Assembly: GCA_003158175.1 (NCBI GenBank)
Contig: PMHJ01000037.1
Coordinates: forward strand, 62,713 to 126,712
From: Candidatus Cybelea septentrionalis
Lineage (GTDB): Bacteria; Vulcanimicrobiota; Vulcanimicrobiia; Vulcanimicrobiales; Vulcanimicrobiaceae
Length of the DNA stretch: 64,000 nucleotides
Direction of reading: 5' to 3'
Positions 33,130 to 47,735 of this stretch are shown here, one piece after another. A model generated the notes under the pieces. That model made no database searches, was not told the DNA's origin, and was given only the letters and a program-made list of their open reading frames with translations. Both the position numbers and the translations under genes were made by a program. Every line of letters begins with the position of its first letter. Position 1 is the first letter of the stretch.

Positions 33130-34014
33130 ATGCCGTCGGTACGAGATCTGCGCGACCGCATCCGGTCGCTCAAGAATACTCAACAGATCACCAAAGCGAT
33201 GAAACAGGTCGCCGCTGCAAAGATTCGCCGCGCCGAAGAGGCCCGCAAGCGCGCTCGTCCTTACGCCGACGCACTCGCGGAGATGCTTGCGGACTTGATG
33301 GCGGCGGTTTCGTCCGTCGATCACCCATTCATGAAACCGGGGAACGCGAGCGCCCCCGCGGGCATCGTTCTCATGAGCGCCGATAAGGGGCTCGCCGGCG
33401 CCTTCAACTCCAACGTCATTCACGCAGGCGAGACGTTCGCCCGCGGCCGCAGCGGCGTTCGTTACTACACGGTGGGCCTCAAGGCGCGTAACGCCGTGCG
33501 ACGGATGGGCGTCTCGGAGCATCCAACCTGGCCGCTCGGCGCGTCAAAGATCGCCACCGCGCGCGAGATTGCGAGTCGGACGGCTGACGACTTCGTGCAC
33601 GGCACCATCTCCGAGATCGTATTGGTCTCGCAGAAACTCGTATCGATGATGTCGCAGCGCCCCGAAACGCGTAAGCTCGTGCCCGTGCTCGCAGAAGATC
33701 TAAAGGCCTTCGCCGCTACCGGCGGCGAGGAGCAGACTCGCGCCGCTCGCGGCGCCGTAGAGTTTTCCCCTTCGCCGGAGTTCGTGCTCTCGCGATTGCT
33801 TCCGAAGTATCTCGAGTTCACGATCTATTCCGCGATGCTCGAAACCGAGGCGGCGTTCTTTGCAGCGCAGCTCGTTGCGATGACCAACGCCACCGACAAC
33901 GCATCGAAACTGATCGACGAGCTAACGATCGCGATGAACAACGCCCGCCAAGCCGCAATCACAAAGGAACTGCTAGAGATCGTCGGCGGCGCGGAAGCTT
34001 TGGGCGTAGAGTGA
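33130..34014 (+). CDS. atpG: ATP synthase F1 subunit gamma
   Basis: Rotor shaft subunit (294 aa). The N-terminal helix PSVRDLRDRIRSLKNTQQITKAMKQVAA (core KNTQQITKAMKQVAA) and the C-terminal helix EAAFFAAQLVAMTNATDNASKLI (core AMTNATDNA) form the coiled-coil shaft, and a Rossmann-like middle with SADKGLAGAFNSN lies between. The last 11 bases including the TGA stop form part of the left arm of a large inverted repeat that begins at 34004. atpD therefore lies 225 bases further on instead of directly adjacent, unlike the rest of the operon. Confidence 0.95.
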   Translation: MPSVRDLRDRIRSLKNTQQITKAMKQVAAAKIRRAEEARKRARPYADALAEMLADLMAAVSSVDHPFMKPGNASAPAGIVLMSADKGLAGAFNSNVIHAGETFARGRSGVRYYTVGLKARNAVRRMGVSEHPTWPLGASKIATAREIASRTADDFVHGTISEIVLVSQKLVSMMSQRPETRKLVPVLAEDLKAFAATGGEEQTRAARGAVEFSPSPEFVLSRLLPKYLEFTIYSAMLETEAAFFAAQLVAMTNATDNASKLIDELTIAMNNARQAAITKELLEIVGGAEALGVE

Positions 34015-34178
34015 GCTCTTGAAGCGAGAGACACGCCGGCGCTCCGGGGCGTACGAGGGAGGAGCGAAGCCAGGATGGCGAGAGCGACGACGAGTCGAGC
34101 AGCTTTTTCGCTGGATGCGAAAAAGCGAGCGTCCCCGGAGCGCCGGCGTGTCTCTCGCTTCAAGAGCTCACTCTACGC
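34004..34178. repeat. Large hairpin element, copy A (46-bp inverted repeat with 83-nt core)
   Basis: Bases 34004-34049 and 34133-34178 are perfect inverted repeats of 46 bp. Between them lies an 83-nt core (34050-34132) that contains a second hairpin, GCTTTTTCGC / GCGAAAAAGC at 34102-34126. The left arm includes the atpG stop codon. A related 83-nt core, in reverse orientation and about 87% identical, occurs in copy B at 44936-45018, but the arms there are unrelated in sequence. Folded RNA would form a very long stem. No T-run follows, so it is not a standard intrinsic terminator. A -10-like TATCTT (34213-34218) lies downstream before atpD. Confidence 0.92.
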
Positions 34179-44084: not shown

Positions 44085-44888
44085 GTGCAAGAACGGGACC
44101 AAGCGCGACGCGACCGCGAGCGGACCCGCGCCCTCTTCGAGCGCTTCATCGAGCGGCGCGAGCGGCACTCGCAACACGATCAGACCCCAGATTCGCAATA
44201 CGAGGGACTGCGCGAGGAACTCGCCGTCGTTCATCTCAATCTCGTGCGGTTTCTTGCAGTGAGATTTGCCAATCGTGGAGAGCCGCTCGACGACTTGGTG
44301 CAAGTCGGAACCGTCGGACTGCTCAAGGCGATCGACCGTTTCGACCTCGAACGCGGCGTCGAGTTCACGACGTACGCGACGCCGACGATCGTCGGCGAGA
44401 TCAAGCGATACTTTCGCGATAAGGGCTGGGCGGTGAAGGTACCTCGCCGTCTGCAAGAGCTCAATCTCGCCGTCAACCGCGCGACCGATAAGCTCTCGAT
44501 ATCGCTCGGTCGCAGCCCGACGGTAACCGAGTTGGCGGAGCACCTCCGAGCAGGCGAAGACGAGATTTTGGAGGCCCAGGAACTAGGTCAGGCTTATAAC
44601 CTCCTCTCACTCGACAGCGAGATCTCGGGCGAAACCGATAAAAAGTCGCAGACGCTCGCGGACACCGTCGGCATCGCCGACGCCGGCCTCGAGCTCCTCG
44701 AAGACCGCGCGAATCTCGAACGGGCCTTTCGGGTCCTCACCGGCCGGGAGCGGGTGATCATCTACCTTCGCTTTTACGAGTCGGTCTCGCAGACGGAGAT
44801 CGCCAAGCGGCTCAACGTCTCGCAGATGCACGTCTCGCGCCTGCAGGCAAAGGCCCTGGACAAGCTCCGCTCGGTTCTCGCCGAATAG
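44085..44888 (+). CDS. sigB: RNA polymerase sigma factor, SigB/SigF/SigG group
   Basis: A 267-aa group 3 sigma factor. Region 2 has HLNLVRFLAVRFANRG, DDLVQVGTVGLLKAIDRFDLERGVEFTTYATPTIVGEIKRYFRDKGW (core DLVQVGTVGLLKAIDRFD), region 3 has VPRRLQELNLAVNRAT, and region 4 has LTGRERVIIYLRFYESVSQTEIAKRLNVSQMHVSRLQ (core QTEIAKRLNVSQMHVSRL). It should direct a stress or envelope regulon under RsbW/RsbV control. GTG 44085 follows rsbW by 7 nt. The stop codon TAG is the first triplet of hairpin element copy B. Confidence 0.92.
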   Translation: MQERDQARRDRERTRALFERFIERRERHSQHDQTPDSQYEGLREELAVVHLNLVRFLAVRFANRGEPLDDLVQVGTVGLLKAIDRFDLERGVEFTTYATPTIVGEIKRYFRDKGWAVKVPRRLQELNLAVNRATDKLSISLGRSPTVTELAEHLRAGEDEILEAQELGQAYNLLSLDSEISGETDKKSQTLADTVGIADAGLELLEDRANLERAFRVLTGRERVIIYLRFYESVSQTEIAKRLNVSQMHVSRLQAKALDKLRSVLAE

Positions 44889-45068
44889 CGGCCGCTGCAG
44901 GAGCGGTCAGGGTCGCACGCACCCGTGCCGCGGGGACGCTCGCTTTTTCGCGTCCTGCGAAAAAGCTGCTCGCTTCGTCGTCGCTCCCGGCATCCTGCCT
45001 CCGCTCCTCCTTCAGACGCCCCGCCGCACGGGTGCGGGCGACCCTGACCGCTCCTGCAGCGGCCGCTA
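44886..45068. repeat. Large hairpin element, copy B (50-bp inverted repeat with 83-nt core)
   Basis: Bases 44886-44935 and 45019-45068 form a 50-bp inverted repeat with two mismatches. The 83-nt core (44936-45018) is the reverse complement of the copy A core at about 87% identity (11 differences) and holds the same inner hairpin, GCTTTTTCGC / GCGAAAAAGC (44942-44966). The arms have no resemblance to those of copy A. The left arm begins exactly at the sigB stop codon. The alaS extended -10 box begins 10 bases after the right arm. Confidence 0.92.
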
Positions 45069-45092: not shown

Positions 45093-47735
45093 GTGAAGAG
45101 CCAGGAGCTTAGGCAGGCGTGGATTGATTTCTGGGTTGGCAAGCAGCATAAGCGGCTTCCGCCGGCGAGTCTGGTCCCGCACGAGATGTCGACGACGCTC
45201 TTTACGATCGCCGGGATGGAGCAGTTCGTGCCCGTCTTTCTCGGCGAACAGCCCGCTCCCGCTCCGCGCGTCGTGACGGTGCAGCGCTGTCTTCGGGTTG
45301 CGGGTGCGAAGAGCGATATCGAGAGCGTCGGGAGGACGGGGCGGCACGGCACTTTTTTGGAGATGCTCGGCAACTTCAGCTTTGGCGACTATTACAAGCG
45401 CGAAGCGATCGGGTGGGCGTGGGAGTTCGTCACGCAGGTGCTTGCGCTCGATCCCGCGCGCTTGTACGTTACCGTGCACACGGATGACGATGAAGCGGCG
45501 CGAATTTGGAGCGGGGAAGTTGGCCTCGATCCGGCGCGCATCACGCGGTTTGATGAAGATAACTTCTGGACGATGGGTGCGACTGGTCCGTGCGGGCCGT
45601 GTACCGAGATCTTTTACGATACGGGCGTGGAGCACGCGAGCGGCGCCGACGACACGGGGCCAAATCGCGGGAACCGGTACGTCGAGATCTGGAACGTCGT
45701 CTTTCAACAGTACAATCGAACGTCCGACGGTAAGCTCGAAGATTTGCCGCGTAAGTCCATCGACACGGGCGCCGGTTTCGAACGGATGCTCGCCGTCTGC
45801 AACGGCTTTGCCTCGATGTATCAGACCGACCTCTTCACCGATTTGGTCGCGGCGCAGCCGCCGATAGGTCACACGACGCTCGAGCCGCGCGAGCAGCGGG
45901 CGCGCCAGAATATCATCGCGGATCATCTTCGCTCGGCGACGTTCTTGATCAATGACGGCGTCTATCCATCGAACACCGACCGAGGGTTCGTGCTGCGTTT
46001 TCTGATTCGCCGCGCGATTCGCAATGGAAGACTGCTCGGCTACCCCGACGGCTTCTTCTCCGAGCTCGTGCCCGCAGCGGTGCTGTCGCTGCGGCCCGGC
46101 TATCCGGAGCTTCGCGAAAGTGCCGCGCGGATAACGACGGCGCTGCGTCAAGAAGAGCAGACGTTCGACCGGACCCTGGAGCGGGGCATGACGATGCTGG
46201 AGCGCGTCATCGACGACGCAATTGAACGGCGTGGGCGAGTGATCGGTGGAGAGGAAGCGTTCTCGCTGCATGATACGTTCGGCTTCCCTCTCGAGCTAAC
46301 GCGCGAAATCGCGGGCGAGCGCGGCGCCGTCGTCGATACGGTCGCGTTCGACCGCCTGATGGAAGAGCAGCGCGAACGCGCGCGCCGCGACGCCGCCGCG
46401 AAGCGCGACGTGGCGGCGGTAACGGATCTGCCGGCGATCAGCAGCAGCTTTACCGGTTACGATGAGGGCCTCGAAGCCGACGGTGAGGTCGTGGCGGCGC
46501 TCAAAGAAGGAAAGTCAGTCGCTTCGCTATCGCAAGGAGACGAAGGTGTGCTGATTTTGGATCGCACGCCGTTCTATGCGGAGCGCGGTGGTCAGATCGG
46601 CGATCGCGGACGAATCCTACGCACTTCGACAGGCTCAGTGTCGACAGGCTCGGTGGAGGCGCTCTTCGAGGTGCGCGACACCCAGTATATGGGCGAAGCG
46701 ATCGCGCACTACGGCAGCGTCATCGAGGGAGAGTTTTCGGCCGGCGATCGGGTCCGCGCCGGCGTTCTTGAATCGTGGCGGCGCGAGATTCGGCGGCACC
46801 ACACGTCCGCGCACCTTTTGCAACGCGCGCTCAAAGATGTGCTCGGCGACGAGGTGAATCAAGCGGGTTCGTGGGTCGGCATCGACCGCATGCGCTTCGA
46901 CTTCCGCTGGCCGAAAGGCGCGCTGACGCTCGAACAACGGCGCGCCGTTGCCCATCGCGTCAACGAGATGATCCGCGACGACGCGCATCTGGTCACACGC
47001 GTGCTTCCACTCGAGGAAGCAAGAAAGACCGGAGCGATTTGGATGGCCGGGGAAAAGTACGGCGACATGATTCGCGTCGTTGAGGCGGGCCCTTCCGTTG
47101 AGTTCTGCGGCGGCACGCATTCGCACTCAACCGGTGAACTCGGGCTCTTCGTGATTTTGTCGGAATCGTCGATCGGCAGCGGCATTCGCAGAATCGAGTC
47201 GTGCGTTTCGGCGGCCGCCGAGGATCACGTCAACAAGCAGAGCGACCTCATCGGCACGCTTTCGGCCTCGATGTCGGCGGCGCCTGACGAGTTGCTCGAG
47301 CGGCTCGAGCGCATGCAGCGCGACCTCAAAGAGATGCAGACGGCGGTCGGTCAGCTGCGCGCTCGATTTGCGGCGGCCGACGCCGACGCATACGTCGCAA
47401 AGGCCGAGCAAAAAGGGGATCGCGCCTTCGTCGGCGCGGTGCTCCATGAAGCCAACGGCGAAGCTCTTCGCCATCTCAACACGGCAATCCGAAATCGCTT
47501 TCGCAGCGGTGTCGTGGCGCTGGCGGGTATCGACAACGGCACCGTCAGCCTTTTGGTCAGCGCGAGCGACGATCTGATCGGCGACGGCATTCACGCGGGC
47601 AAACTGATGAAGCTGGCGGCCCCGCTGGTCGCGGGTAAAGGCGGCGGTCAGGCGGCACTGGCACAGGGCGGCGGAAGCGACGGCGCCGGCGTCGAGGCGG
47701 CCCTCCAAGCGATTCGCGACGCCGTGCTGGCGTGA
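45093..47735 (+). CDS. alaS: Alanyl-tRNA synthetase
   Basis: Full-length AlaRS (880 aa). The class II core has TIAGMEQFVPVFLGE, RVAGAKSDIESVGRTGRHGTFLEMLGNFSFGDYYKREA (core GRTGRHGTFLEMLGNFSFGD) and GPCGPCTEIFYD. The editing domain has RRHHTSAHLLQRAL, and later FCGGTHSHSTGELG with zinc-site residues. The C-terminal C-Ala domain ends with GKGGGQAALAQGGG. GTG 45093 fits the family N-terminus (MKSQELRQAWIDFW). At residues 512-521 there is an in-frame STGSV-STGSV duplication encoded by a tandem 15-bp repeat. The stop overlaps the next gene (GTGA). Confidence 0.97.
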   Translation: MKSQELRQAWIDFWVGKQHKRLPPASLVPHEMSTTLFTIAGMEQFVPVFLGEQPAPAPRVVTVQRCLRVAGAKSDIESVGRTGRHGTFLEMLGNFSFGDYYKREAIGWAWEFVTQVLALDPARLYVTVHTDDDEAARIWSGEVGLDPARITRFDEDNFWTMGATGPCGPCTEIFYDTGVEHASGADDTGPNRGNRYVEIWNVVFQQYNRTSDGKLEDLPRKSIDTGAGFERMLAVCNGFASMYQTDLFTDLVAAQPPIGHTTLEPREQRARQNIIADHLRSATFLINDGVYPSNTDRGFVLRFLIRRAIRNGRLLGYPDGFFSELVPAAVLSLRPGYPELRESAARITTALRQEEQTFDRTLERGMTMLERVIDDAIERRGRVIGGEEAFSLHDTFGFPLELTREIAGERGAVVDTVAFDRLMEEQRERARRDAAAKRDVAAVTDLPAISSSFTGYDEGLEADGEVVAALKEGKSVASLSQGDEGVLILDRTPFYAERGGQIGDRGRILRTSTGSVSTGSVEALFEVRDTQYMGEAIAHYGSVIEGEFSAGDRVRAGVLESWRREIRRHHTSAHLLQRALKDVLGDEVNQAGSWVGIDRMRFDFRWPKGALTLEQRRAVAHRVNEMIRDDAHLVTRVLPLEEARKTGAIWMAGEKYGDMIRVVEAGPSVEFCGGTHSHSTGELGLFVILSESSIGSGIRRIESCVSAAAEDHVNKQSDLIGTLSASMSAAPDELLERLERMQRDLKEMQTAVGQLRARFAAADADAYVAKAEQKGDRAFVGAVLHEANGEALRHLNTAIRNRFRSGVVALAGIDNGTVSLLVSASDDLIGDGIHAGKLMKLAAPLVAGKGGGQAALAQGGGSDGAGVEAALQAIRDAVLA
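46626..46655 (+). repeat. In-frame tandem 15-bp repeat inside alaS
   Basis: TCGACAGGCTCAGTG (46626-46640) is followed by TCGACAGGCTCGGTG (46641-46655), 14 of 15 identical, encoding STGSV twice. The unit with preceding TT resembles the short TTCGACAGGCTCAG repeat that recurs in many bacterial genomes. Nothing similar is expected at this position of AlaRS. Confidence 0.75.

Follow-up and report, generated by a model that had tools for sequence, protein, structure and literature searches.

REPs that carry a CGTC tag are palindromic repeats that occupy tandem and convergent gaps behind genes without a dedicated transposase, and CCTC is a variant of their tag (Di Nocera et al. 2013, PMC3733652). 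These repeats are single hairpins with stems of 8-9 bp, loops of 4-5 bases and a CCA tail, and GYAG has also been described as a REP tag variant (PMC3733652). In the open-access literature, we found no account of such a repeat in Eremiobacterota. The window analyzed here, i.e., the whole stretch of 64,000 nucleotides, contains the palindromic element termed copy B, which belongs to a family of extragenic palindromic repeats dispersed in genomes of Candidatus Eremiobacterota.

Copy B and its repeat family

Copy B is an inverted repeat at positions 44886-45068 of the window, with arms of 50 nt that are complementary at 48 of 50 positions (96%) and are separated by 83 nt. As the first-pass annotation had stated, the left arm opens at the T of the sigB TAG stop codon (the sigma-factor ORF ends at 44888); the name sigB is used at the family level only (TIGR02980, SigB/SigF/SigG family). 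The inner hairpin was also found as described, and its 5-base loop differs at two positions between copy B (GTCCT) and a further copy in the window, copy A (ATCCA). The same annotation correctly recognized the repeat but read it on the wrong strand, as the conserved fold belongs to the complement. The left arm of copy A indeed takes in the last codons and the stop of atpG (stop at 34012-34014), and copy B ends 24 nt ahead of alaS. The identities of atpG, atpD, alaS and the sigma factor gene were tested. The features are as follows.

About 34004 to 34178, GA strand on the plus strand: copy A, between atpG and atpD, reversed relative to copy B; match to the covariance model R1 at 34038-34144, plus strand, 112 bits
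44085 to 44888, plus strand: SigB/SigF/SigG-family sigma factor gene (TIGR02980), upstream of copy B
44886 to 44935, plus strand: left arm of copy B, forming one side of stem P1; its first bases are the TAG that ends the sigB-like gene, and it is an inverted copy of the right arm
44936 to 45018, minus strand: conserved core of copy B, 83 bases; hairpins P3 and P2 of the three-way junction form on its purine-rich (GA) strand, here the minus strand
44942 to 44966, minus strand: P2 hairpin of copy B (GCTTTTTCGC / GCGAAAAAGC), with GYAG ahead of it on the GA strand (GCAG here); outer limits approximate
44971 to 45018, minus strand: P3 hairpin of copy B and its base; contains G·A pairs in tandem and GGA in its loop; outer limits approximate
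45019 to 45068, plus strand: right arm of copy B, the other half of P1; its outer part, CCCTGACCGCTCCTGCAGCGGCCGCTACG, has a counterpart at the element-less locus of genome G016
45093 to 47735, plus strand: alaS (alanine--tRNA ligase), downstream of copy B

The R1 match in copy B covers window positions 44924-45030 on the minus strand with 108 bits, and the fold of the copy B sequence lies 15-16 standard deviations below dinucleotide shuffles. In the 64-kb window, a tRNA was the sole Rfam match at the gathering score, with none for the element. The search with the core revealed at least four full copies in the source genome, i.e., two beyond A and B, together with weaker relatives; these copies were found by search only. 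The full copies have cores that are 88-90% identical and arms that are completely different.

A DNA-level match to the core was present in 30 of 98 genomes. Using the R1 covariance model, we found the element in 65 of 118 sampled genomes, all belonging to three families (f1, f2 and f3) of one class, and no match in the other families sampled among the 118. Most sampled genomes of one soil-bacterial family carry it, as do some related families. The matches numbered from about 1 to at least 21 per genome, and these counts are lower bounds with 32 candidates scored per genome. Including its arms, the element spans about 118-226 bp, mostly 130-185 bp. The core had no match in the plasmids searched. 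A pattern scan of genome contigs for the P2 hairpin was set aside, as it returned many unrelated organisms at the chance level for a bare 24-base palindrome. Additionally, we observed that many copies are located at contig ends in four genomes, G023, G057, G007 and G001 (e.g., G057:C264:57 and G023:C90:1). The element therefore probably breaks assemblies, so that copy numbers in draft genomes are probably underestimates.

Fold of the core and the constrained strand

The alignment of 56 copies revealed a three-way junction on the purine-rich strand, which is composed of P1 (the arms), P3 and P2. Changes on both sides were present at 35 of the 41 pairs, and the covariation score was 0.383, compared with 0.116 for shuffled alignments and at most 0.07 for slid registers. 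P3 contains an internal loop and three tandem G·A units, which occur either in the form G·A/A·G or as two Watson-Crick pairs. The numbers of sequences with G·A and Watson-Crick states at the three units were 39 and 13, 45 and 10, and 33 and 21, respectively, and other states were found in at most 4 of the 56 sequences at any unit. This all-or-none exchange, as read from the alignment, indicates that the G·A pairs of P3 very probably form. The GA strand was identified as the folding strand because the other strand would give C·T mismatches. The P3 loop contains GGA in most copies, with AGGAT in the loops of 40 of 56. GCAG or GTAG stands ahead of P2 in 45 of the 56 copies, and GCGT stands behind it in 49; the junction bases and loops are conserved across the three families.

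The first-pass annotation had suggested selection on the core structure and had named covariation as a means of checking it. The core does covary, and the strong covariation together with the all-or-none exchange between tandem G·A and Watson-Crick pairs bears this suggestion out, since mutation alone would not yield such an exchange. That the element forms a repeat family, placed behind gene ends and with a core fold under selection, is almost certain.

Altered P2 stems were observed in two further cases. In a pair of orthologous copies (L122 and L132, in G057 and G023) whose flanks are 91% identical, the entire sequence of the P2 stem is different and the fold is kept. The copy between atpG and atpD in G016 (L157) has lost the P2 hairpin and kept P3 and near-perfect arms of 35 bp.

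We found that the mismatches of the variable outer arms were distributed unevenly between the strands. On the GA strand, we counted 125 G·T and 58 A·C pairs (p = 8e-7; 48 versus 16 copies), where the p value is optimistic because the copies, which include orthologues and pairs, are incompletely independent. The ratio of G·T to A·C on the GA strand was 32:14 where this strand is sense and 50:21 where it is antisense to tandem genes, while in the tandem copies, read on the mRNA-sense strand, it was 69:75 (model edges included). As the excess appears whichever way the tandem genes run and is gone on the mRNA strand, the constraint goes with the strand of the element itself and not with the transcript of a neighboring gene. 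To judge from these alignments, the constrained molecule is probably the GA strand as single-stranded DNA, or RNA of that strand. We lean slightly toward single-stranded DNA as the working form, although the G·T excess could stem from a transcript of the GA strand.

Placement, arms and candidate explanations

Gene neighborhoods were called with a simple codon-usage gene caller made for this analysis. Among 99 copies, 66 lie in tandem, 30 in convergent and 3 in divergent gaps, and three more copies are located inside called genes. The control gaps of at least 60 nt at the same loci were 73 tandem, 11 convergent and 41 divergent (n = 125), which shows that divergent gaps are avoided (3/99 versus 41/125). 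In tandem gaps, the element begins a median of 16 nt past the stop and ends 75 nt ahead of the next start, and 55 of 63 such copies are nearer to the stop than to the next start. When the distances from arm to stop were tabulated, placement was thus non-random, and the repeated targeting of gene ends that had been proposed was upheld: 72 of the 96 copies with a 3'-end neighbor are within 30 nt of its stop. The accompanying proposal of co-evolution with stop codons was not, because only 16 of these 96 have an arm that extends as far as the stop.

Several loci are shared between genera. Eight genomes from different genera carry the element at infB, six genomes carry it at atpG, and four each at sigB and at lpdA, which suggests long residence rather than active movement. 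The names infB, nusG, lpdA, nuoK, guaA and moaA are presumed from the translated proteins. At the nusG locus of two genomes, two or three elements are present in alternating orientation. We also observed such groups, which resemble BIMEs, at L258 and L261 (nusG-rplK), L257, L259 and L260, where two or three alternating elements are 100-300 bp apart. In G005 (L158) and G003 (L172), a small extra ORF replaces the palindrome between atpG and atpD, which marks this gap as a hot spot of change. Another type of core, with other GA-rich hairpins (e.g., GGATGGCGGAGCGACGAG) and unrelated arms of its own, was found in some of the same gaps, at L007 (G000:C48:55931-55963), L156 (atpG-atpD of G009), and L191 and L195 (sigB-alaS of G013 and G001), as if different cores were able to occupy one site.

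The complementarity of the arms, which had also been emphasized, is real; however, it is not clean evidence of selection. At a cation-efflux gene site common to the source genome and its sister species G014 (L003/L099), the core lies in opposite orientations between flanks that are 93% identical. The outer arm differs there by three compensated changes, and the inner arm has been exchanged for another sequence. In the atpG copy, an identical 2-bp insertion that distinguishes G014 from the source genome is mirrored in both arms. Replication template switching is known to yield arm homogenization and spacer inversion (PMC8604942, PMC8794818). Because of these known effects, complementarity by itself cannot serve as evidence of selection, and template switching accounts for at least part of it.

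Sites that lack the element were also compared. In the sigB-alaS gap of G016, the element is absent and, of its sequence, just the right outer arm has a counterpart. Two sites occupied in G023 are empty in the sister species G057, with no clear target duplication at either. One empty G057 site, CCCGCAACCGGG, matches the right outer arm, and fits either an insertion with an inverted extension or a deletion between CCCG repeats. The arms are partly alike between copies inside G052 and G023/G057, and are otherwise mostly unrelated between loci. We considered whether the arms are simple inverted target duplications; given the partly alike arms in these genomes and the empty sites, which allow deletion, this is not the whole story.

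With regard to partner enzymes, the Y1 transposase (PF01797) was absent from the source genome and from the copy-rich genomes G052, G060, G023 and G057, and the Y1 genes of relatives had no flanking R1 matches. RAYT/Y1, reverse transcriptase and IS110 were rejected as partners, as their occurrence profiles do not match that of the element, and no transposase was identified in these searches. CsrA was rejected as well, since csrA is equally present in genomes with and without the element.

The best explanation overall, which we consider somewhat probable, is a Y-shaped REP-like repeat whose GA strand is recognized as single-stranded DNA. The purine-rich strand folds as a Y with a long P1, a G·A-laced P3 and a mostly GYAG-tagged P2 around the conserved junction bases, and would be recognized in the manner of REP hairpins. 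A trans-acting nuclease or recombinase may move, or may once have moved, the copies. Replication template switching would re-copy the arms from each other, extend them into the flanking sequence and at times flip the core. Copies would survive behind genes, either because a large hairpin is least harmful there or because it provides a useful barrier at the mRNA 3' end. A more specific version, which we put forward tentatively, is that of a strand-selective single-stranded DNA element in three families of one class, in which the Y fold with tandem G·A, and not a terminal sequence, is the signal for a non-Y1 recombinase or nuclease.

The position close behind stops, the avoidance of divergent gaps, the presence inside housekeeping operons (atpG-atpD, infB, nusG-rplK and nuoK) in several genera and the very stable fold could all be expected of a hairpin at mRNA 3' ends or between cistrons, selected through the transcript of the upstream gene as a barrier to 3' exonucleases, an RNase III site or a non-canonical terminator, as proposed for E. 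coli REPs. We regard this as rather unlikely, because the wobble pairs are even on the mRNA strand and uneven on the GA strand, and of 93 copies, 65 have the GA strand antisense and 28 have it sense to the nearest 3'-end gene. A canonical intrinsic terminator was rejected as well, since the arms lack a T-tract behind them: a run of 5 or more T directly past the arm was present in 3 of 91 copies. The strand-specific constraint would agree with transcription of the GA strand as a small structured or antisense RNA, for example one that binds CsrA, and both the GGA loops and the presence of csrA in most genomes of the family are in line with such an RNA. It is nevertheless improbable: the CsrA consensus has the ANGGA spacing, which most loops lack, csrA occurs equally where the element is absent, there is no Rfam match, and a promoter in the arms cannot be conserved because the arms are unrelated between most loci. 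The mirrored arm changes and the core inversion would also be explained if the palindromes were functionless mutational products of template switching. This reading is disfavored and, in our judgment, very improbable. Such a process would convert G·A mismatches to perfect pairing, whereas the tandem G·A are either retained or replaced a whole unit at a time. In addition, the three families have kept the junction bases and loops, and the placement is non-random.

Comparison with known repeat systems

Like the CGTC REPs, the element is palindromic, is found behind genes, whether the gap is tandem or convergent, and has no linked transposase. In contrast to these single hairpins, it contains two hairpins on a long third stem, and its P3 is longer and has an internal loop. 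The tag itself is not general, as the P3 side opens with CGTC or CCTC in only 21 of 56 copies. A 35-mer taken as an alphaproteobacterial CGTC REP has an exact match in Methylosinus plasmids, and a fold with the same G·A ladder can be drawn for it. Direct sequence homology to it was rejected as marginal, because shuffles equaled the similarity between the core and the 35-mer in 12 to 166 of 500 cases.

The element shares with GTAG REPs, BIMEs and REPINs a hairpin with G[CT]AG (in 45 of 56 copies), the location at gene 3' ends and the close inverted pairs (nusG-rplK). Whereas GTAG REPs are single hairpins of 20-40 bp, the element is far larger, with three stems. Their tag is terminal; the GYAG of the element is located inside, before P2. 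It also differs in having no linked RAYT (Y1) in most carrier genomes and few copies per genome. Compared with MITEs (Correia/NEMIS, ERIC and Nezha), it is similar in its length of about 150 bp, long terminal inverted repeats, proximity to genes and arms that are partly alike within some genomes. Unlike those of MITEs, its arms are mostly unrelated between loci. The two empty sites revealed no clear target duplication, and no source transposon was found.

REP-like repeats that lack a known mobilizing enzyme have posed a puzzle ever since the description of the CGTC repeats (PMC3733652). The present family has a distinct structural signature, a strand test built into its sequence and numerous orthologous sites. 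With these, the effects of selection (the core and its G·A ladder) can be separated from those of template switching (the arms), and the R1 covariance model is a means to hunt for the mobilizing enzyme. Among REP-like extragenic palindromes, the element is a new variant that is larger and Y-shaped.
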